From: Methanosaeta sp. PtaB.Bin039
Lineage (GTDB): Archaea > Halobacteriota > Methanosarcinia > Methanotrichales > Methanotrichaceae
Direction of reading: 5' to 3'
DNA: 64,000 nucleotides
Assembly (NCBI GenBank): GCA_002067795.1
Contig: MVQI01000011.1
Coordinates: 1-64,000, forward strand
Below, one piece after another: positions 42,437 through 63,548 of the stretch. Under the pieces are notes generated by a model. The model was not told where the DNA came from. It saw only the letters and a program-made list of their open reading frames with translations, and did not search any database. Every line of letters starts with the position of its first letter. The stretch's first letter is position 1. Position numbers and translations under genes: made by a program.

Positions 42437-42439
42437 TTT

Positions 42440-42583
42440 GGGTTCTTAGCTATAATTGGGTTCTTAGCTATAATTGGGTTCTTAGCTATAATTGGGTTCT
42501 TAGCTATAATTGGGTTCTTAGCTATAATTGGGTTCTTAGCTATAATTGGGTTCTTAGCTATAATTGGGTTCTTGGCTATAATT
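42440..42583 (+). repeat. 18-bp tandem repeat, eight copies
   Basis: The unit GGGTTCTTAGCTATAATT is repeated eight times without a break; seven copies are identical and the last has one change (TTGG for TTAG). On the minus strand it reads open as an IIAKNP repeat, but there is no ribosome site or plausible start, so I treat it as noncoding. Perfect identity implies recent expansion. Confidence 0.95.
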
Positions 42584-42641
42584 GCAGAGGATGATCTCGA
42601 CTCGATCCCCTGGACGCTTGCCAATCTTGCGGCCTTTCATA

Positions 42642-44300: not shown

Positions 44301-44381
44301 GGCCAGAAGGAAAGGGACGGAAAAAAAGATGAAAGAGATGACCCCCAATCACATGGCGGGAATGGATGGGAGGAGTTGCAG

Positions 44382-46277
44382 ATGACATCGCTTCTCAGTA
44401 GATTCATTTCCAGAGTCGACTTCGAGTCCTATGACGACTTCAAGCAGAACCTGAAATTTACAGTTCCTGATAATTTTAATTTCGCCTATGATGTGGTCGA
44501 TGCATATGCCCGGGAATGCCCAGAGAAGATCGCCTTGGTCTGGTGCAACGATCACGACGAAGACAGGATAATCACATTCGGTGACCTGAAGGTGCAGAGC
44601 GACAAGGCAGCCAACTTCTTCTGCCGGCAGGGCTTGCGCAAGGGTGATACCGTCCTTTTGAGCTTGAAGAGCCGTTATGAGTTCTGGATCGCCATGGTCG
44701 GGCTGCATAAACTTGGAGCCGTCGCCATACCATCCACCCACATGCTGAAGAAGAAGGACTTCGTCTACCGGGTCAGGAAAGCCTCCTTGAAGATGATCGT
44801 AAGCATAAACGCAGAAGGCGTTCCAGAGGAGATCGACGGCGCTCATAAGGAGCTTGGCGGCGGCTTCATCCGGGCTTTTGTGGGAGCAGAAGACGAAGAA
44901 CGCCCCAATTGGATAAACTTCAGAGCTGCGCTAAAACAGGAATCTGAGAGGTTCGAGCGGCCGACAGGCGACCAGGCCACAACCAACCGGGACATACTGC
45001 TCTCCTATTTCACTTCGGGAACCACCGGCAATCCCAAGATGGTGAACCACGACCAGACCTATCCGATCGGTCATATACTGACCGCACGGTACTGGCAGAA
45101 CGTTGAGGACGACGGCCTGCACTATACTGTGGCCGATACCGGCTGGGCCAAAGCAGCCTGGGGAAAGATCTACGGCCAGTGGATAGCCGGATCAGCCATA
45201 TTCGTCTACGATTACGAGAGGTTCGACGCAGGGCGCATGATGAACATGATGTCCAAGTACAAGGTCACCACCTTCTGCGCCCCGCCAACCATCTACCGTT
45301 TCATGATCAAGGACGACATGTCCAAGTACGACTTCTCGTCGGTCCACTATGCTGTGACCGCCGGTGAGCCGTTGAACCCCACGGTTTACAATAAATTCCT
45401 TGAGAAGACCGGCCTGCGCTTGATGGAAGGGTACGGCCAGACCGAGACCGTGGTCTGCATCGCCAACTTCCCCTGGATGGAGCCCAAGCCAGGGTCCATG
45501 GGTAAACCAGCTCCCACCTACGATATAGTCCTGGTCGATAAGAACGATAAGATCTGCGAGGCTGGCGAGGAGGGGGAGATCGTGATAAGGACTGATCGGG
45601 GCAAACCCACCGGGGTCTTTGTCGACTACCACCTCGACCCGGAGAAGGTCAGGAACACCTGGCACGACGGGTACTATCATACGGGCGACACCGCCTGGAT
45701 GGACGAGGATGGATACCTGTGGTTCGTTGGCCGGACCGACGACATGATAAAGAGCTCTGGTTACAGGGTTGGGCCTTTTGAGGTGGAGTCGGCTCTGCTC
45801 TCCCATCCGGCCGTCCTGGAGTGCGCCATCACCGGCGTCCCCGATCCCCTGCGCGGCCAGGTGGTAAAGGCCACCGTTGTCCTGACCAAGGACTACCTCC
45901 CATCCGAGGCGCTGAAAAAGGAGCTGCAGGACCACGTCAAGAAGGTCACAGCTCCATACAAATACCCCAGGATAATGGAGTTCGTTGACGAGCTGCCAAA
46001 GACCATCAGCGGCAAGATCCGCCGTGTTGAGATCAGGGAAAAGGACAAGCCCTACCCGATCATCAGGTCGGAGGAGTGCAAGGCCTGCGAGCGCTGCATC
46101 GTCGCCTGTCCGGTCAACGTGCTCAAGATGGGAGAGGAGTTCAATCAGAGAGGGTATCGCTTCGTCGTTTACACCGGTGAGGGATGTATCGGCTGCGGCA
46201 GCTGCTATTATACCTGCCCGGAGCCGCTTGCCTTGGAGGTACACGTGCCCTCAAAGGAAAAGGAAACTCAGAGTTAG
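44382..46277 (+). CDS. AMP-forming acyl-CoA synthetase fused to 2[4Fe-4S] ferredoxin domain
   Basis: A 631-residue fusion. Residues about 1-560 are an acyl-CoA synthetase related to medium-chain enzymes: [13 protein letters not shown] (ATP loop), [17 protein letters not shown] and the catalytic Lys in [10 protein letters not shown]. The last 60 residues are a two-cluster ferredoxin: [18 protein letters not shown] and [22 protein letters not shown] 44382 follows GGAGG. The next two genes encode alpha and beta-gamma of a 2-oxoacid oxidoreductase that has no separate ferredoxin subunit, so this domain probably serves as its delta subunit. The acid substrate (branched-chain, aryl or other) is unknown. 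Confidence 0.93.
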
Positions 46278-46289
46278 GAGACTTACAAG

Positions 46290-47333
46290 ATGCCTGTCCA
46301 GTTAGTTGAAGGCAATAATGCTGTGATAATCGGGGCCATGTACGCCGGATGCGACTGCTTCTTCGGCTACCCCATAACTCCGGCCAGCGAGATCCTTCAT
46401 GCTGCCTCCAGGTACTTTCCCCTGGTGGGCAGGAAGTTCGTTCAGGCCGAATCGGAGGAGGCTGCCATAAACATGGTTTACGGCGCCGCCTCAGCCGGCC
46501 ACCGGGTGCTGGCAGCCTCCTCCGGCCCCGGGATGAGCCTCAAGCAGGAGGGAATAACCTATCTGGCCGGGGCAGAGCTGCCCTGCGTCATCGTGGATAT
46601 CAACAGGGCCGGTCCAGGACTCGGAAATATCGGCCCGGAGCAATCCGATTACAACCAGGTTGTGAAGGGCGGAGGGCACGGCTGCTACCAGAACATAGTC
46701 CTTGCCCCAAACTCAGTGCAGGAGATGTGCGACCTGACCAGGAAGGCCTTTGATCTGGCCTTCAAGTACCGCAACCCTGCGGTCATACTGGCCGATGGTG
46801 TGCTTGGGCATATGGTCGAGCCGCTGACATATCCGGAGGATGCCATCGAGCATTATATAGATACGTCATGGGCAGTGGCTGGGAACAAGCAGACCATGGG
46901 CAACCTGATCACCTCGATCTTCCTTAACTTCGACGAGTTGGAGAGGCACAACCTCAAGCTGCAGAAGAAATATGCCACAGTCAGGAAGAACGAGGTAGCT
47001 TATGAGGGCTACCGCCTGGAAGATGCCAGGATCGTCCTTGTATCCTACGGCATAAGCTCCAGGATCTCCAAGTCGGCAGTGGACGCTGCTCGCAAGGAGG
47101 GCATACCAGCAGGTATGTTCCGGCCAATCAGCCTCTACCCGTTCCCAGAACAGGAGATCAGATCTCTGGCGGATCGGGGATGTCGGTTCATATCGGTTGA
47201 GATGAGCAACGGCATGTTGGCAGATGATGTGCGCATGGCCAGCGGCTGCAAAGATGTGGCCCTGGTGTTCCGTCTGGGCGGAAACCTGATCCAGATGAGC
47301 GATATCTTGAAGAAGATCAGGGAGGTGTCCTGA
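46290..47333 (+). CDS. 2-oxoacid:ferredoxin oxidoreductase subunit alpha
   Basis: A 347-residue alpha subunit (VorB/KorA/PorA type), holding the pyrimidine-side domain and the C-terminal II domain. Seen: [55 protein letters not shown] and [11 protein letters not shown]. It starts 12 bases after the acyl-CoA synthetase stop. Overall it looks most like 2-oxoisovalerate or 2-oxoglutarate enzymes. With beta-gamma it interconverts acyl-CoA, CO2 and reduced ferredoxin with the 2-oxoacid and CoA. Confidence 0.92.
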
Positions 47334-47334
47334 G

Positions 47335-48753
47335 ATGCAAGAGGAGAAGGTGCTGGCGTCCAGGGGTATATACTCGAGCTTCCCCCGCAAGGGCGGTTCG
47401 GCTCCCACAGCGACTCACTACTGTCCAGGGTGCGGACACGGTGTTTTGCATAAACTGATCGGAGAGGCGATGGCCTCCTTGGGAATCCAGGATCGATGTG
47501 TAGTAATGAGTCCTGTTGGATGCGCCGTCTTCACCTATTATTATCTCGACTGCGGGCACATACAGGCTGCACACGGCAGGGCTCCTGCCATCGCCACGGG
47601 GCTGTCAAGAGCAGAGGACGACGCGATTCCCATATCATACCAGGGTGACGGGGATCTGGCATCAATCGGCCTTAACGAGACGGTCCAGGCAGCCAACCGT
47701 GGGGAGAAGATGGCTGTATTCTTCGTCAACAACACAGTCTATGGCATGACGGGCGGGCAGATGGCCCCCACAACGCTGGTGGGGGAGGTCACTGCAACCA
47801 CCCCCCGTGGCAGAGATCCGCGGGATGCTGGATATCCAATTCACATGTGTGAGCTGATCGATACCCTAAAGGCCCCGGTCTACATCGAGCGGGTCTCCCT
47901 GTCGGATATCGAGCATATCCGGAAGGCCAGGAGGGCTGTGCGAAAGGCGCTTGAGATTCAGCGGGACAAGAAGGGCTACGCCTTCGTTGAGTTCCTATCT
48001 CCCTGCCCGACCATCCTGCGCATGGATGTCAGATCGGTGGAGAAGTTCATCAATGAGCAGATGGAGGCGGAGTTTCCACTCAAGCGCTTCCGTGATCAAT
48101 CCTCACAGGCCGAGCCTATCCAGCGGACGCCCAGTGACTTCCGAAAGGAGAGCCTGGACCAGATTTTCGGCATATGTCACGAGGAGTGCATCCTTACCGA
48201 GGAGGATCCCGCATTCGTTGTTCGCGGCGTAAAGATAAGCGGATTCGGAGGCCAGGGTGTCCTCAGCATGGGCCTGGCCCTTGCCCAGGCAGCTTACCGG
48301 GGCGGACGTTTCGTCTCCTGGTATCCGGACTATGGGCCTGAGCAGCGTGGTGGGACCTCCAACTGCTCTGTGGTCATCTCAGGCCAGCCCATCGGCTCGC
48401 CCATGGTGGACCAGCCTGACGTGCTCGTGGCTTTCAACCGGCCTTCACTGGACAAGTTCGCAGCATCCGTCAAGAAGGGCGGCCTGATACTTTACGAGGC
48501 CATGATCGGTGAGTATCAGCCTCCTGAAGGGGTCAGGGCAATTGCCATTCCAGCCACCAAGACAGCGTCTGATATGGGAGCTGATCAGGCGGCAAATACA
48601 GTCATGCTGGGAGCAGTTATGCAGGCCGGAGACCTGGGTCTGCCAGATGGGGCGTTTTCCAGGGCTCTTGAGCAGACATTCGCCAAGAAGCCGCGTCTTA
48701 TCCCGCTCAATCTGCAGATAATGGGTGCCGGAGCGGAGCTGGCAGGCAGATAA
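47335..48753 (+). CDS. 2-oxoacid:ferredoxin oxidoreductase, fused beta and gamma subunits
   Basis: A 472-residue fusion. Residues about 1-250 are the TPP-binding beta subunit: [29 protein letters not shown] and [11 protein letters not shown]. Residues about 300-472 are the gamma subunit: [20 protein letters not shown] and [21 protein letters not shown]. The linker is about 50 residues. It starts one base after the alpha stop. The beta-gamma and synthetase-ferredoxin fusions together give the four usual chains on three genes. A T-rich tract follows the stop. Confidence 0.92.
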
Positions 48754-50282: not shown

Positions 50283-50733
50283 GCGAAACTCGCGATCTGA
50301 GTCCGGGTACCTCTCAGATCCCGCCCATATTCTTAATGCGATAAATATCGGTCTTTTTCCGCAATCAGATCAGGAGGTGGAGCAATGTTAACGAGGGGCA
50401 GATGAACAAGTGATGGAAACGCTTTCCGAGACCAAAGAAAGACACAGGCAATCTCCTGGCAAAGAGCTGGAAATCCACGGATAAATCCGCGACATTTTCA
50501 GCGTCCGTCTCCCCCTCAAACATGCTTTGTCATCATGCGGCCAGACAGGTCTCTCCGTATCTCTATTGGGACATACGATAATCGAATCAGCGAAAGCCTC
50601 CGCTACGAGAGCCTTCAAATCCGTGAGGACAGACGTCGGGCTAGGTTGGCGGACATCATGCCAGTTGGGACAGCTTGAATCCAGCTCTATCTGGTATTGT
50701 AAAACCTTTCAGCTGATTCGACAAACCGCCATT
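50283..50733. other. decayed region with orphan ribosome site
   Basis: A perfect AGGAGGTGG ribosome site at about 50372 leads to ATG 50385, whose frame stops after six codons, as if a gene start were left behind. On the minus strand a frame stays open for about 105 codons (about 50388-50702, including SCPNWHDVRQPSPTS and VAEAFADSIIVCPNRD) without a start or recognisable family. Both look like gene remnants at the edge of the decayed island. Confidence 0.4.
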
Positions 50734-50949
50734 CTACGGCAGCAACGAGAATACCATTGCCCGGCCGCGCCTCTCAACAGCAATCTTGTTCTCTCGGCCC
50801 AGCCATCCCAAAGCTCCGTAAACCAGCTCTCGCCTTAAGCCTGTTGCTTTAACAATACCATCGATGGTGCTCGGACCGTTCTGATTGAGGGCTTCCCAGA
50901 CGATTCCAGCTTTCTCTCCAAATATCCCTTCAACAGTTGTTTCCGCCAT
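50734..50949 (-). CDS. DUF2582-like winged-helix protein
   Basis: A 71-residue single winged helix: AGIVWEALNQNGPSTIDGIVKATGLRRELVYGALGWLGRENKIAVERRGR followed by VFSLLP. This matches the small DUF2582 winged-helix family of bacteria and archaea, whose role is unknown; it may bind DNA. TTCTTATAG upstream on the minus strand could be a TATA box. The base composition is like that of core genes, unlike the island that begins just beside it. Confidence 0.82.
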   Translation of the reverse strand: MAETTVEGIFGEKAGIVWEALNQNGPSTIDGIVKATGLRRELVYGALGWLGRENKIAVERRGRAMVFSLLP

Positions 50950-51314
50950 AATGCATAGTTCTTTGTGATTCTTCTATAAGAATACATAGGGGGAAAAGCG
51001 TATTTTTTAAGATTCAAATTGAGGTTAGCGGTTTGGCTTCATAATCCTTACTTATACATCTCCCTTAGGAATCGCGGCCGGTACAACGATATCTCCGCCG
51101 CCCTAGGACATTCGGTCAGGGTCGCGATTGCGCACCTCACCCAAATTGTCCAAGCGATTCGCCGCGGTGTAAACGATGGGATCGGCTCTCGGATCATTTT
51201 TTATCTCGACGGGGAGCGTAGAGGGGTGAAAGACCCCGATATTTAGGCTGTGGATTCAGAGCCCATCCTCCGTTTATTCAAATCCATAAATGCGATTAAG
51301 CTGTATAAACTGCT

Positions 51315-51538
51315 ATGCTCAAGTCGTTCAAGTACCGGATCTATCCTAGTAGATCCCAGAAATACGAGTCAGCTATTGTTCCAGGTGCGGTCATAAAATC
51401 ACGAAGTCGCTATCGGATCGGGTCCATGAGTGTCCTTTGTGTGAGCTAGTCATGGACCGCGACGAGAATGTGGCTATCAACATTCTGAGATTGGGGATGC
51501 AATCTCTTCGCAAACGCGATAGAAGCCCCTCCATTTAG
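51315..51538 (+). pseudogene. internally deleted tnpB remnant (IS200/IS605 group)
   Basis: ATG 51315 begins MLKSFKYRIYPSRSQKYESA, the standard N-terminus of TnpB/OrfB. At about 51377 the sequence jumps, in another frame, to the C-terminal zinc finger: CSRCGHKITKSLSDRV, then CPLCELVMDRDENVAINIL and a stop at 51536. The middle 300 or so residues, with the RuvC catalytic acids, are gone. It is therefore a deletion derivative that could only move or act with help. The region 50950-51314 upstream shows no gene. Confidence 0.85.
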
Positions 51539-51632
51539 GGTTGGGGAGCATTCACCGATTACTGGCTTTGACGATGTATCCGTTACCGGCTTCGTGATCT
51601 TCGATCAAGCCTTCGGAGAATTATGTCCTATC

Positions 51633-51681
51633 CGCAGGAATACCTATTCGCAGGAATACCTATCCACAGGAATATCCTATC
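51633..51681 (+). repeat. 16-bp tandem repeat, three copies
   Basis: CGCAGGAATACCTATT, CGCAGGAATACCTATC and CACAGGAATATCCTATC follow each other. A tandem GAGGCATTCAG motif comes next (about 51695-51735). Together they form a repeat-rich boundary to the AT-rich zone. Confidence 0.75.
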
Positions 51682-51725
51682 AATAGGACAATTAGGAGGC
51701 ATTCAGAGGAGGCATTCAGGGGGCA

Positions 51726-51836
51726 CTCATTCAGGGTGGCTAGTCTCACTTATGGTTGCATGTTTCTTTGCTGTATGCTCAAAGCCTAGCCGATAATGCT
51801 CATTCAGGGTGGTTAGTCTCACTTATGGTTGCATGT
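51726..51836 (+). repeat. 38-bp direct repeats
   Basis: Two copies, 51726-51763 and 51799-51836, differ at one base (GGTGGCTAG versus GGTGGTTAG). They lie 35 bases apart, just before the AT-rich zone. They could be target-site or attachment-site remnants. Confidence 0.85.
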
Positions 51837-51844
51837 GTCTCTTT

Positions 51845-52915
51845 TATGCCTGCCTATTTTTAGATAAATTATATTGTTATAAAATATTAAGATAATATAT
51901 TAAAATAAATACTTTATATTAATGATTTATTAATTTTTAATATTTTATAAATTTAATATTTATAATCAATTAATTAGTGGCTTTTTAACAATATTGTTTC
52001 TTAATTTGTTTAATAAAACTAAAAAATACGCATAAAATTATATTTTATATTATTTAAATTTAAATTTTCATTAATAAATACATTTTATAAATTGTATAAA
52101 TCTAAATTTTAATTTAATAAAAATTTTTAATATTTAAATTAAATTAATATTATATATAATTTGCATGATTTTGTATACACCATCTGCGCTTTTCGCACAG
52201 GATGCACTGCCGGTGCAAAAAAAATCGCTAATTTATAAATAGATATTTCCTTCATATGGTATAGGGTTTATCCTGATGATTACAATTTATAAAATATCTC
52301 TAATTTACTATTGATGACTCTTTCATTCACATACTATGTCATAATGAAGTTGGCTTGGATATGCCTATTCACTTTGACTCACCTTTTGGGGCAGATAATG
52401 GGGGGTATGCGCGCTGTAACCATAGTATTCTTATAGTATCTGGAACCAACGAGTTGAGAAAATAGTGGTTTTTCATAGGGATAAACAACTTGATCTCATA
52501 TAGTATGTGAATGAAGTAGTTCTATTTCCGTTGAGCCTGGTGTATAACGTGGGTCCTTCGAGGAACTTATCAGAGTAGGCCACACGCTACGACTCTTCGG
52601 GCTTCTTTCGAGGTTCATTCAGGGCTTGTATAAAATAAGATCTTATCTGGGATTCATCTTAATTATTCACCAATAAATAAATTATAGAAATTATTTAATG
52701 ATGTATTTATTGTAATATAAACATCATTTTAATCATTATAATCATTATTTTTAAAAAGTATATATTAATTTAATTTTTTGTTTTTATAATTATATTATTT
52801 TATAACATTATTTGACATAATACTTTGTACTTATTTTTTAACAAATTTATTTTTGTACAAATATTTATTAACAACAATATTTTATTATTTATCAATTATT
52901 TTGTTTTTTTTGCCT
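51845..52915. other. two AT-rich zones around an inverted-repeat core
   Basis: 51845-52175 and 52655-52915 are almost pure A and T and read as nothing in any frame. Between them, 52180-52640 has ordinary composition and contains 16-base perfect inverted repeats (52322-52337 and 52500-52515). No replication initiator gene and no origin-recognition repeats were seen, so I call it a structural or decayed mobile region. Confidence 0.55.
52322..52515. repeat. 16-bp perfect inverted repeat around 162 bases
   Basis: TTCATTCACATACTAT (52322-52337) is the exact reverse complement of 52500-52515. The 162 bases in between are not coding. The arrangement would suit the ends of a small nonautonomous element or a regulatory cruciform; no target duplication is evident. 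Confidence 0.75.
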
Positions 52916-53164
52916 CGAATCTTATTGAATTGTCGAATCCATCTTCGCTGTTGTAAGGATAACGCCTAGCGGTATTTGTGAGACATTATCTTTCGCATAG
53001 CGCGGGAGTATCTTATCTGCTGAGGTGAGCCGGTGACGCCGGTGGCCGATGTAGTCGCAGCTTTTCCGGTTTTCTTTTTGAGAAGTACTGCAAAGCCGGG
53101 AATAGCGATCACGATCTCTGCCTCCTGGGGACGATCATAGCCAGATCCCACTCATCCAGATCAA

Positions 53165-53870
53165 AGAATATATTGTCCGTCAACAGGGCCTGATCAATCT
53201 ATCGTGGCTGTCCCCTATGGGCTCGCCGACTCCCTGAATGTCCCGGATTTCTGGATGGTTACGGCATTCCTTATATGCCTCCTGGCTCTTGGCCGTCAAT
53301 GACTCGGTTCAATCGAGGCAGTAGGGGGCCCTATTACAGGCAGACGATTATGGCGGGGAGGATAAGACGTGGCGTTGCCCTGACAGGCGCCTGCAATTTC
53401 CTGGCAGGCCTGCTGAGTGTCATTGGCCCGGTGAACTATTCCATGAGCCGGAGTAATCGCCGTAACCGGCTGCGCATCCAAGTTCACCCTGATCCCAGCT
53501 GCATTGGGTCTTCTTCTCCTGGCCTTCTCGCCCGTGGCAGTGTGATTGATCAGCAGCGTACCAGCCCCGGTAGTGGGGACAATTCTCAATCTACATCTTG
53601 ACCGCACAGATCGGCGTTGCCTTTCTGATGACAATTGAGAGAAAGGCGTTTCAAAACCTGGATCATGGACTTGTGGTGGGCATGCCCATCATCATCGGCA
53701 TCGTTTTGTCTTTCTTGCCCTTCAGGCATCATCGATCAACTTCCGCTCGCTTTTCGACCGTTGTTATCTAACGGATTTGTTATGAGGGTCCTGGCTGTAC
53801 CGTTGCTGGAGCATGTGATCTTTAGCGGCCTTTGGGATGGGCAATCCGAAAATGATATTTAAAGAAGGCA
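53165..53870 (+). pseudogene. broken NCS2 xanthine/uracil permease
   Basis: Fragments in changing frames rebuild an NCS2 purine/pyrimidine permease: VAVPYGLADSLNVPDFW, then a TGA, then EAVGGPYYRQTIMAGRIRRG, ALTGACNFLAGLLSVIGPVN, GVIAVTGCASKFTLIPAALG, a stop, then TAQIGVAFLMTIERKAF and LDHGLVVGMPIIIGIVLSFL. At least three frameshifts or stops occur, and only the C-terminal half or so remains. It is clearly nonfunctional. Confidence 0.85.
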
Positions 53871-54107
53871 GAATATGAACGTCACATAAGTCCCCATGAT
53901 TCTTTTTTCATGAAGCCTTTGACAGAGATGACACATAGAGCGGAAAACCTCCCCGCCATTCAACATTCATTATCAATTGAGGATTTCGTATTTCCGGCGC
54001 GATTTCAGGGAAGTCATCAGTGGTTTTTGAAAGATCGTGAATTATAATTGTGCGTCTTGCTCTTTAGGACGAAAAATTGAGATTTGTCCGATTCGTCGAC
54101 TGAGCAA

Positions 54108-56408
54108 TCACCCAACTCCGCGGTTCCTGATGATCTGCTCGTATGTATCGGCGGCCGGACCTCTCCTTCGTGTCAACATAGGATCGCTATCCAGCTGAAT
54201 ATTGTAAAGCCCGAAATCGCTGGCATCATTGAACTTCAGATCCCACTCCCGGTTTGAGGTGATGGACCAGCAAAGATAACCCTCCACGCCAAGTCCGTCA
54301 TTAGCAGCTCTCTGCACCTGCCTTATATGCTCACGGATATAGGTCTCACGATCCCACCCATCCGCCTCCTTGACCGAGCCGTTCTCGAAGATTATGAGCG
54401 GTTTATGCGGGAACATTTCGTGCAGGTCGCGCAGGATGTCGTAAAGCGCTCCCGGCCAAACCGGTGCCCTATCAAATCGCCGGTACGCCGCATCTATGAG
54501 CCTCTGGAGGCGCTCTATATGCAGGCTTGGTATCCCCCAGTAATAGTCCAGGCCGACGTAGTCCAGCTTGTGCCGGCAATCCTCAGGACACAGATAGTCG
54601 TTGAGCTTTCCAGCCATCCCCATATACCACCAGTTGGACATGAGGAGGGTGGAGAGGATCGTGTATTGCTTAAGGATCCGGTCCAGAAATCCAGGCTTTG
54701 TCTCAAGCGATGCCATGCGCTTTTGAAAAGCCAGCGTCTGGAAGCGCACCTTATCTGGATCCCCGAGGATCCTCTCGGCAAGGGCGTGAGCCAGCATTAT
54801 CTCAAGTCCGCCCAGATTGCCCGTATCCGCATCACGGTAGCCGAACCAGGGGAGATCTTCGCTGACCACAACAACCAGATAGCCTCGATCCTGGATACGG
54901 CGAAGGGCCGTGCCGGGGGCAGCTCTCGACAGCTTATCAATCGAGTCAATTCTTCGTGCTGCTGCGATCCTGGCGCTCGATTCGCTTATCACAATAGACC
55001 TGGAAATGGTCTGGGGCTTTGAAGCCGTTCGACCGGTGAGCTGGCTGTAGTTGGCCCTCCACTGGGCCGCTTCTGGTGATGTGTTAAACGACCTTACTGC
55101 GGAATCGACCAGGCTCAGCAGCTCGCCATCTCCCTCCGAGATGGCCACGGAATAGCTCTCCCGGTCATGAAATTCGCCATCAACAAGCCGATATCTCCCT
55201 GGGTGACGAAGCATTAGACCGATCAGGATTGCGTCGTCACCAAGAATCGATGATACACGACCTGAGTCGAGCGACTTCAGGGCCTCGTTGTAATCGTAGA
55301 ACGTAATTGCCCGCGACCCTGTGAGGTATTTGGGGACGCCCGGTTCAGAGGTTGGGCCCCTTAGCACTGCGACCTCCTTGCCAGCCAGTTCTGAGGCTTT
55401 GTCGATATCGCTATCAACACCGACCAAAAGCAGTTTCTTGGTGCAGAAATAGGGCTGGGAGAGCATAACCTCAGCATCCCGTTCTGAAGTTTTGGCCAGG
55501 GCAGCGATCACGGCATCGACCTTGCCTCTTTCAAAGACACTGGATCTGATTGCGCTGATCCTCTCTCCCCTTATCAGGTCTCTCTTGAGAGCCAGGCGAT
55601 CTGCCTGAACCTTAAGATCTCCGTCGCCTTTGATGGCCAGAGCATTCCTATTAGCCAGAAATTGAAGCCACTTTGGCAGGCCGTAAAAGTACTGGTTTAC
55701 GCCAACCTTTGCATCCCGGTTTCTGTCTCTTACTATCTGGTAAGCCTCCTTGTTTGCCAGAAACAGATTTCGGATCAGCCTGCCCACGGCCTCCACCTGC
55801 TCAGATGTTGTGGTCCCCTCAGGCAGTCCAGGCGGGGCTGCGTAATTGGAATCCCACCAGGGCTTGAGGTAGCCGCCGATGAGAAGGTTCGGCTCGTTGA
55901 AGGTAATCCAATAGGGGACCAGTTTGGCGAAGCGATCGGCAACCTCTCTGACGTAATCGGCATAGATATCAGGAAAATCGGGCCCTATCATTCCTCCACG
56001 GGCCTCCACATGAAGCGGCCAGGTGAAATGATGAAGCGTCAGTACTGGGGTCATATCGCAGGAGCGGATCTTCTCGATCAGCTTTCTGTAGTGATCGAAA
56101 GCGTCCTCATTCCACCCGTCCTCGCCGAGATCGACCCTGGACCAGGCAATAGAGAAGCGAAACGCATTGCATCCCAGCTTCTGTGCAAGTTCGATATCCT
56201 CCTCATACCTATTCCAGAAGTCGGTTGCCCTACCGCGTGCTGCCTCCGGACACCGTATCTCTTCCCACCTATCGCGGATGTCCGGGTACTTTGGATCAAA
56301 CGCCTCACATTGATGATCCGCGGTGGCAACTCCGAAAATGAAATGGCCGGCCAGTGGGGGGAGCTCTTGCTTCCCAAAAATGCCAGCAAACGTGTCTCTC
56401 AAGGTCAT
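54108..56408 (-). CDS. family 1 glycoside hydrolase with inserted, rearranged solute-binding domain
   Basis: A 766-residue intracellular protein (no signal peptide). Residues 20-245 are the first part of a GH1 barrel with HFTW and the acid/base Glu of TFNEPN (E172). Residues 580-766 are the rest, with VGLDYYWG, nucleophile IIFENGS (E675) and YLCWSITSNREW. Between them lie two pieces of a type-3 solute-binding protein in reversed order: 281-456 (GKVDAVIAALAKTSERDAE ... SYSVAISEGDGE ... SPEAAQWRANY) is normally the later part, and 500-570 (IQDRGYLVVVVSEDLPWFGY ... GGLEIMLAHALAERIL) the beginning. So the binding domain seems circularly permuted. It likely senses a ligand and controls a beta-glycosidase. 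Alone in its transcription unit. Confidence 0.88.
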   Translation of the reverse strand: MTLRDTFAGIFGKQELPPLAGHFIFGVATADHQCEAFDPKYPDIRDRWEEIRCPEAARGRATDFWNRYEEDIELAQKLGCNAFRFSIAWSRVDLGEDGWNEDAFDHYRKLIEKIRSCDMTPVLTLHHFTWPLHVEARGGMIGPDFPDIYADYVREVADRFAKLVPYWITFNEPNLLIGGYLKPWWDSNYAAPPGLPEGTTTSEQVEAVGRLIRNLFLANKEAYQIVRDRNRDAKVGVNQYFYGLPKWLQFLANRNALAIKGDGDLKVQADRLALKRDLIRGERISAIRSSVFERGKVDAVIAALAKTSERDAEVMLSQPYFCTKKLLLVGVDSDIDKASELAGKEVAVLRGPTSEPGVPKYLTGSRAITFYDYNEALKSLDSGRVSSILGDDAILIGLMLRHPGRYRLVDGEFHDRESYSVAISEGDGELLSLVDSAVRSFNTSPEAAQWRANYSQLTGRTASKPQTISRSIVISESSARIAAARRIDSIDKLSRAAPGTALRRIQDRGYLVVVVSEDLPWFGYRDADTGNLGGLEIMLAHALAERILGDPDKVRFQTLAFQKRMASLETKPGFLDRILKQYTILSTLLMSNWWYMGMAGKLNDYLCPEDCRHKLDYVGLDYYWGIPSLHIERLQRLIDAAYRRFDRAPVWPGALYDILRDLHEMFPHKPLIIFENGSVKEADGWDRETYIREHIRQVQRAANDGLGVEGYLCWSITSNREWDLKFNDASDFGLYNIQLDSDPMLTRRRGPAADTYEQIIRNRGVG

Positions 56409-56528
56409 TGTCTATCGCCCTCGAGCAAGAAGCCCTCTGTTGCTGCTATACGGACGATGTTCTTATACAGCTCTCTCATCTTCATGGCAGCCTGCCTATA
56501 TCAATTGCGATATTGGCCATCTGATACT

Positions 56529-56640
56529 GACTATGTGATACAGACCATATGAAACGGACTATGCTATACGGACCATGTGATACGGTTAATCCACACCGAT
56601 TATGCTTTGCCGATTATGCTATACCGGTTACGCTATGATA
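56529..56640. repeat. 14-bp degenerate tandem repeat, eight copies
   Basis: Eight consecutive 14-base units such as GACTATGCTATACG, GACCATGTGATACG and ATTATGCTATACCG run from 56529 to 56640. Units differ at several positions but keep the phase exactly. They lie 120 bases upstream of the hydrolase start (minus strand) and could bind a regulator, or be an old expanded repeat. Confidence 0.75.
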
Positions 56641-62980: not shown

Positions 62981-63024
62981 CCCTTTCGACACGAAGGCCA
63001 GCGGCAAATTCCGCTTTTTCCTAT

Positions 63025-63240
63025 ATGCGATCCGATATGCGATCCGATATGCGATCCGATATGCGATCCGATATGCGATCCGATATGCGATCCGATATGC
63101 GATCTGATATGCGATCTGATATGCGATCCGATATGCGATCCGATATGCGATCCGATATGCGATCCGATATGCGATCTGATATGCGATCCGATATGCGATC
63201 TGATATGCGATCCGATATGCGTTCCGATATGCGATCTGAT
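63025..63240 (+). repeat. 12-bp tandem repeat, 18 copies
   Basis: The unit ATGCGATCCGAT (some ATGCGATCTGAT, one ATGCGTTCCGAT) is repeated 18 times. It can be read as MRSD on one strand and RISD on the other, since 12 is a multiple of three, but neither frame has a ribosome site. Another partial copy closes it at 63241. Near-identity of copies implies recent expansion. The stretch from 62938 to 63024 and from 63241 to 63480 has no supportable gene. Confidence 0.97.
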
Positions 63241-63548
63241 ATGCGATTCATTATGGGACCACAGACTGCGGGCTTATTCGCTTGCGTTTTAAACGGAAAA
63301 GCGCGATCTTTGGTCAAGGAGAATAAGCATGCAGGACTTATGGAGTCGAGATTTCCGTATGGGTAAAACAGGTCGGCTCTGGAAAGAAGAGCGCAGAAAC
63401 GTTCTTCCCCGGCATCTTGATGTCGGGCTGCCGCTGCCCAACTATATATGGAATGGATGGGAAAAGGTGACAAGGAGGCTGTGACATCTCCCAAAAACGC
63501 CCGCCCTGTTCTCCCATCTTCAGCTGCTCGCTACAGTTTCTCATAGCG

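Follow-up and report, generated by a model that had tools for sequence, protein, structure and literature searches.

A GH1 glycosidase gene of Methanosaeta carrying an inserted, circularly permuted solute-binding domain, a candidate allosteric enzyme

The window analysed here is a 64,000-nucleotide stretch of a contig from Methanosaeta sp. PtaB.Bin039, and its minus strand carries an open reading frame at 54108..56408 that starts with ATG and comprises 766 codons. Based on the reading frame, Pfam searches and a full-length ortholog, we assign this gene to a GH1 beta-glycosidase with an inserted, circularly permuted type 3 solute-binding protein (SBP) domain. In the encoded protein the Pfam model Glyco_hydro_1 (PF00232) matches in two separate stretches (E 2.3e-49; 168.5 bits against a cut-off of 22.6), which places it in the GH1 family in agreement with NCBIfam, and the model SBP_bac_3, likewise in two stretches (E 4e-14), matches between them. 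The N-terminal barrel half (aa 1 to ~276; 55581..56408, minus strand), delimited by the Pfam match at aa 20-238 and by the GH1 alignment, spans strands beta1-beta5 and carries the acid/base E172 within TFNEPN, as well as Q33, H127 and N171. The C-terminal half (aa 591-766; 54108..54638, minus strand), delimited by the second Pfam/NCBIfam GH1 stretch and by alignment, spans strands beta6-beta8 and carries the nucleophile E675 within FENGS, as well as Y623, W714, E721 and W722. The frame with its length of 766 aa and the two motifs, at residues 169-174 and 674-678, lie exactly where the initial annotation had placed them, with the strand now added. All of these catalytic and glycone-site residues are kept in an alignment with seven ordinary GH1 enzymes, the one change being the Asn of the NYY motif, which is replaced by Asp (GLDYYWG); identity to the ordinary GH1 enzymes compared is only ~27-30%. 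With this residue set intact, an active glycosidase is plausible. The protein thus shares with the GH1 beta-glucosidase family (PF00232, TIGR03356) the same signature in the same order and the same pair of catalytic Glu residues, whereas ordinary members lack an SBP insert of ~300 residues in the beta5-alpha5 loop.

According to the alignment, the insert follows strand beta5 (VGVNQYFYG) and precedes the alpha5 region (SNWWYMGMAGKL), which places it in the beta5-alpha5 loop; judging from the known GH1 fold, this loop lies on the barrel's catalytic side. The entry junction (aa ~277-293; 55530..55580, minus strand) was delimited by comparison with the ortholog, to which residues 261-290 around it are 70% identical, and the exit junction into alpha5 (aa 570-590; 54639..54701, minus strand) by alignment. 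A low-confidence AlphaFold2 model of the full-length protein aligned over ~780 columns to GH1 structures, with the N- and C-terminal halves on either side of the insert, and is consistent with the two halves forming one barrel around it. The best match in the PDB, 8in1 (994 aa), was considered as a similar insertion and rejected, as it is a tandem GH1 protein from Aplysia.

The gene is flanked in the window by a metallophosphoesterase gene and unrelated genes, and no ABC transporter genes are adjacent to it. The short gap upstream of its start contains five copies of an imperfect direct repeat of ~14 bp (GACTATGCTATAC type) at a spacing of 14 or 28 (56506-56636), which are possible regulator sites. 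On the other side lies a region of ~3.8 kb (50300-54100) with AT-rich repeats and almost no long ORFs, which includes an apparent decayed C-terminal fragment of an IS605/TnpB-like gene (~51315-51538). Farther away, at 44376-48753, a gene joins an AMP-forming acyl-CoA synthetase to 4Fe-4S ferredoxin domains; genes resembling 2-oxoacid:ferredoxin oxidoreductase come next, and the product of the second of these (472 aa) resembles a fusion of two subunits. Two other repeat arrays were observed in the window: at 42438-42584 an 18-bp unit (TTGGGTTCTTAGCTATAA) is repeated almost perfectly to give eight copies, and at 63019-63247 a 12-bp unit (TCCGATATGCGA) occurs nineteen times and in one frame reads as a four-residue SDMR repeat.

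Within the insert, the two parts of the SBP domain are encoded in reverse of their native order. The C half (aa 294-458; 55035..55529, minus strand), defined by profile and structure-sequence matches and by alignment, begins at native strand beta3 and comes first, whereas the N half (aa 498-569; 54702..54917, minus strand), defined by comparison with the ortholog and with a third, partial copy, runs from native beta1 to alpha2 and comes second. The variable stretch between them (aa ~459-497; 54918..55034, minus strand), recognized by its low conservation, links the native SBP C-terminus to the native N-terminus. The initial annotation had already read the insert as swapped SBP halves inside GH1; the swapped order stands, and the limits proposed there, 281-456 and 500-570, are refined to ~294-458 and 498-569. 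As encoded, the insert matches the solved SBP AncQR (4zv1) piecewise: the C half (fragment residues 3-150) falls on residues 66-216 with E 2.4e-22, and residues 9-59 are matched separately by the N half. After the halves are swapped, the same protein is matched in a single continuous alignment (PDB, E 1.2e-27). The glutamate-binding protein 5eyf of E. faecium shows the same trend (E 1.6e-20 as encoded, and one alignment with E 6.8e-26 after swapping), and the swapped insert matches M. tuberculosis GlnH (6h1u) with E 6.9e-21. A match to the whole type 3 profile (PF00497) in N-to-C order is obtained only with the halves swapped, when SBP_bac_3 aligns in one stretch over profile positions 1-129 at 72.1 bits, compared with 56.6 bits in two stretches as encoded; this is the outcome for which the swapped-profile search had been proposed. 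In the multiple alignment, the re-ordered halves join at E569|R294 without a gap and without overlapping.

We further aligned the insert as encoded, by local alignment, with doubled copies of five SBPs, using 60 shuffles as control. The insert (288-569) covers about one full period of the doubled targets (69-324 of 2x250), with scores of 184-272 for the window protein (P0001) against shuffle maxima of 59-79, and of 200-275 for the ortholog (P0002) against shuffle maxima of 58-91; on single copies the scores of the insert reach only 150-196. Taken together, the continuous match after swapping, the seamless junction and the one full turn on the doubled SBPs indicate that the native chain was opened in the alpha2-beta3 loop, with the predicted native ends joined by a linker of ~39 residues (459-497). 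With the architecture also present in two other genomes, the origin of the gene by insertion plus circular permutation, as put forward initially, is in our judgement close to certain. We consider it very probable that both halves together form a single two-lobed fold, with residues 459-497 as the closing linker.

A search of other genomes for the same architecture, suggested in the initial annotation, yielded two further copies. A full-length ortholog with the same architecture and 58% identity (P0002; L001:2352-4640) was found in an uncultured Methanosarcinales genome (G039), and a third copy, 53% identical and truncated by the contig end (G038, L004), retains the SBP N half, the exit junction and the GH1 C-terminal half. 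Domain order and junctions are kept in both. Identity to the ortholog is 71% in the GH1 C-terminal half, 63% in the SBP N half and 38% in the SBP C half, and falls to ~21%, with a length change of 2 aa, in the linker (residues 457-499), which is the least conserved segment and has the highest dN. The proportion of nonsynonymous differences (pN) is 0.20 in GH1-N, 0.38 in the SBP C half, 0.51 in the linker, 0.18 in the SBP N half and 0.18 in GH1-C, whereas pS is ~0.72-0.84 in the long segments, which is near saturation. The lower pN indicates that the insert is under purifying selection, which by this pattern of substitutions covers both SBP halves and is strongest, within the insert, in the N half. 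The G+C content and codon-position pattern are similar across the gene, and the base composition of the insert differs from that of the GH1 halves by no more than a few per cent. The neighbouring genes differ between the carrier genomes, and the absence of a common gene neighbourhood leaves no physiological hint for ligand or substrate. Upstream of the ortholog, a flavin-reductase-like gene on the same strand (L001:1771-2295) ends ~56 bp before the GH1-SBP gene, a possible operon that is not common to the window.

The distribution of the architecture is patchy, with three carriers among 50 genomes of the order. At the class level (238 genomes), the GH1 N-terminal part was recovered only in the two full-length carriers and one unrelated GH1, and no further carrier was identified in two phylum samples of ~390 genomes each. 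One exact-peptide scan of genome contigs returned only the known ortholog; such a scan misses bacterial relatives that differ in the peptides, so that a restriction to methanogens is not established. Among plasmid records, no match covered 80% of the protein, and the matches inspected were ordinary GH1 enzymes or SBPs in ordinary order. Viral contigs contained no relative of the whole protein, with GH1 enzymes at five loci, four of which contributed to the alignment, and SBPs at only two partial loci. The SBPs inspected in the window's own genome have the ordinary order and look unlike the insert. Another GH1 enzyme of over 700 aa from the same class and another family (G474; L057:1198-3396) was rejected as a case of the same architecture: its beta5-alpha5 loop holds an unrelated hydrophobic, membrane-like Gly-rich insert in which no SBP was seen, and the protein has a long C-terminal extension as well. 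The beta5-alpha5 loop could be a hot spot for insertions.

Type 3 SBPs are typically exported or lipid-anchored partners of ABC transporters. The window protein shows neither of these traits: no signal- or membrane-like segment was detected in its 766 aa, where the highest 19-residue Kyte-Doolittle mean is 1.13. This is consistent with the cytosolic location that had been proposed for it. To predict the ligand pocket, we mapped the insert through a GlnH-like protein of Rhodococcus, whose residue spacing matches Arg147, Ser164, Arg169, Trp232 and Asp250 of M. tuberculosis GlnH. In the latter, Ser164, Arg169 and Asp250 hold the amine and carboxyl groups of the ligand, and Arg147, Trp232 and Thr162 contact the side-chain carboxylate of the bound Asp (PMC6069109). 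The SBP C half of the window protein contributes R310 (Arg169), D391 (Asp250) and Y373 (at Trp232) to the predicted pocket, and the N half contributes R564 (Arg147). The predicted backbone-binding pair R310 and D391 is present in both full-length proteins, as is Y373, and each of the three copies has R564; the aligned E. faecium protein, too, has Tyr in place of Trp232. Two positions of the pocket are changed: that of Thr162 is occupied by Ala in both full-length proteins (A303 in the window protein), and that of Ser164 by Ala305 in the window protein and by Thr in the ortholog. The kept pocket residues, which include the Arg typical of Asp/Glu binders, make an acidic amino acid the best guess for the predicted ligand, with moderate confidence. 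The lower conservation of the SBP C half suggests that ligand binding could be drifting or could differ between the two proteins. Overall, we consider it likely that the insert binds a small ligand, and put the chance that this ligand is Glu or Asp a little short of even.

We slightly favour the reading that the protein works in the cytosol as a GH1 beta-glycosidase under the control of its inserted, permuted type 3 SBP (Venus-flytrap) domain, with an acidic amino acid as ligand. Opening of the chain in the alpha2-beta3 loop makes the ends of the insert adjacent residues and brings them close together in space, a requirement for suspending a domain from a loop; here two short junctions to the beta5-alpha5 loop would hold it on the catalytic face of the barrel. 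An acidic amino acid, most likely glutamate or aspartate, would close the flytrap on binding, and this closure would pull on or reposition the loop, changing its strain or position and thereby raising or lowering the glycosidase activity. In this way, turnover of beta-glycosides could be coupled to the cytosolic pool of glutamate or aspartate. That ligand binding to the insert alters GH1 activity at all is, in our estimate, somewhat better than an even bet. The full proposal, in which a permuted SBP within a (beta/alpha)8 glycosidase makes a naturally evolved allosteric enzyme that responds to glutamate or aspartate in the cytosol, is more tentative.

The permuted SBP might instead bind its ligand without regulating catalysis, delivering or capturing a substrate or product such as a glycosylated amino acid or an aglycone. 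GH1 and an amino-acid-type binding site sharing one chain would fit this alternative, as would the insertion on the catalytic face, which puts the flytrap near the mouth of the active site, and the presence of a deoxyfructosyl-amino acid binder among the SBP3 relatives of the insert in the PDB. Binding modules, however, are usually appended at a terminus, and a permuted domain tethered at two points speaks more for mechanical coupling, so that we regard this explanation as rather unlikely. We hold it equally unlikely that the domain no longer binds a ligand and serves as a module for structure or oligomerisation. The divergence of the SBP C half and the replacement of two pocket positions by Ala in the window protein point in this direction, but R310, D391, Y373 and R564 are kept in the full-length ortholog, R564 also in the third copy, and both SBP halves are under purifying selection. 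Far less probable is an origin of the halves as separate remnants of tandem SBPs, each with a part lost, that do not fold together. Circular permutation commonly arises via tandem duplication, and AlphaFold2, given two to eight sequences, showed no single fold, with a mean pLDDT of 47 for the full protein (8-row alignment) and 36 for the insert alone (2-row alignment), and values that in both cases stay below 50 over almost the entire insert. Nevertheless, the halves are exactly complementary at E569|R294, the same is true in the ortholog, and in known SBPs, to our knowledge, neither half makes up a full domain by itself. Finally, an error of assembly or gene calling, or decay of the gene, which the very small number of carrier genomes might suggest, is refuted by the open frame and identical domain order in separate assemblies at 53-58% identity, and is at odds with the uniform composition of the gene. 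Allosteric sensing is thus the best, although unproven, explanation of the architecture.

Compared with known systems, the gene is a variant of SBP-domain-containing enzymes. Like the type 3 SBPs for Glu/Asp (M. tuberculosis GlnH, Campylobacter PEB1a and E. coli GltI), the insert matches the type 3 profile over its full length once its halves are swapped, and it keeps the predicted backbone-binding Arg and Asp and the side-chain-binding Arg. It differs from them in being permuted at the alpha2-beta3 loop and embedded in an enzyme, with no signal peptide or lipobox and no adjacent ABC genes. The lytic transglycosylase MltF, a glycan-cleaving enzyme with a regulatory domain that we take to be SBP3-like, resembles what is proposed for the window protein, and the insert gives weak matches to MltF profiles. 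MltF is an envelope enzyme, however, whose regulatory domain is N-terminal and in native order and whose lytic transglycosylase domain is unrelated to GH1, whereas the catalytic domain of the window protein is GH1 and no export signal is seen. Muropeptide binding to the N-terminal domain of MltF triggers its switch to the active form (PMC10746161). In mycobacteria, a GlnH-type SBP serves as an amino-acid sensor, and not for transport, in the GlnH/GlnX/PknG system (PMC6069109), and the swapped insert has a weak match to the StpK7 profile; GlnH/PknG signalling starts outside the cell and passes across the membrane to a kinase, and no permutation is involved in these systems. The closest parallels are engineered: R-ncp-iGluSnFR1, with cpGltI inserted into an unpermuted RFP, has the same topology, a permuted SBP with adjacent new termini in an unpermuted output domain, and the xylose-stimulated xylanase-XBP chimeras are SBP-controlled glycosidases, as proposed for the window protein (PMC6335823). 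Both of these, as well as the MBP-beta-lactamase RG13, are man-made, whereas the window protein is natural, conserved and has a GH1 output. No natural GH1-SBP fusion or natural SBP permutation was found in the literature searched, and an earlier description is possible.

If the preferred reading of ligand-controlled catalysis is true, the protein would be a natural counterpart of laboratory domain-insertion switches. SBP-controlled enzymes have been engineered via circular permutation and domain insertion, and a conserved natural example would imply that evolution makes use of this trick as well; useful design rules could be drawn from the permutation site and the beta5-alpha5 loop, and the protein itself would be a ready, testable allosteric glycosidase. 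For the carriers, methanogens without a reputation for sugar metabolism, it would mean that a sensor domain of the transport type works within the cell and links the level of an amino acid to glycoside metabolism.
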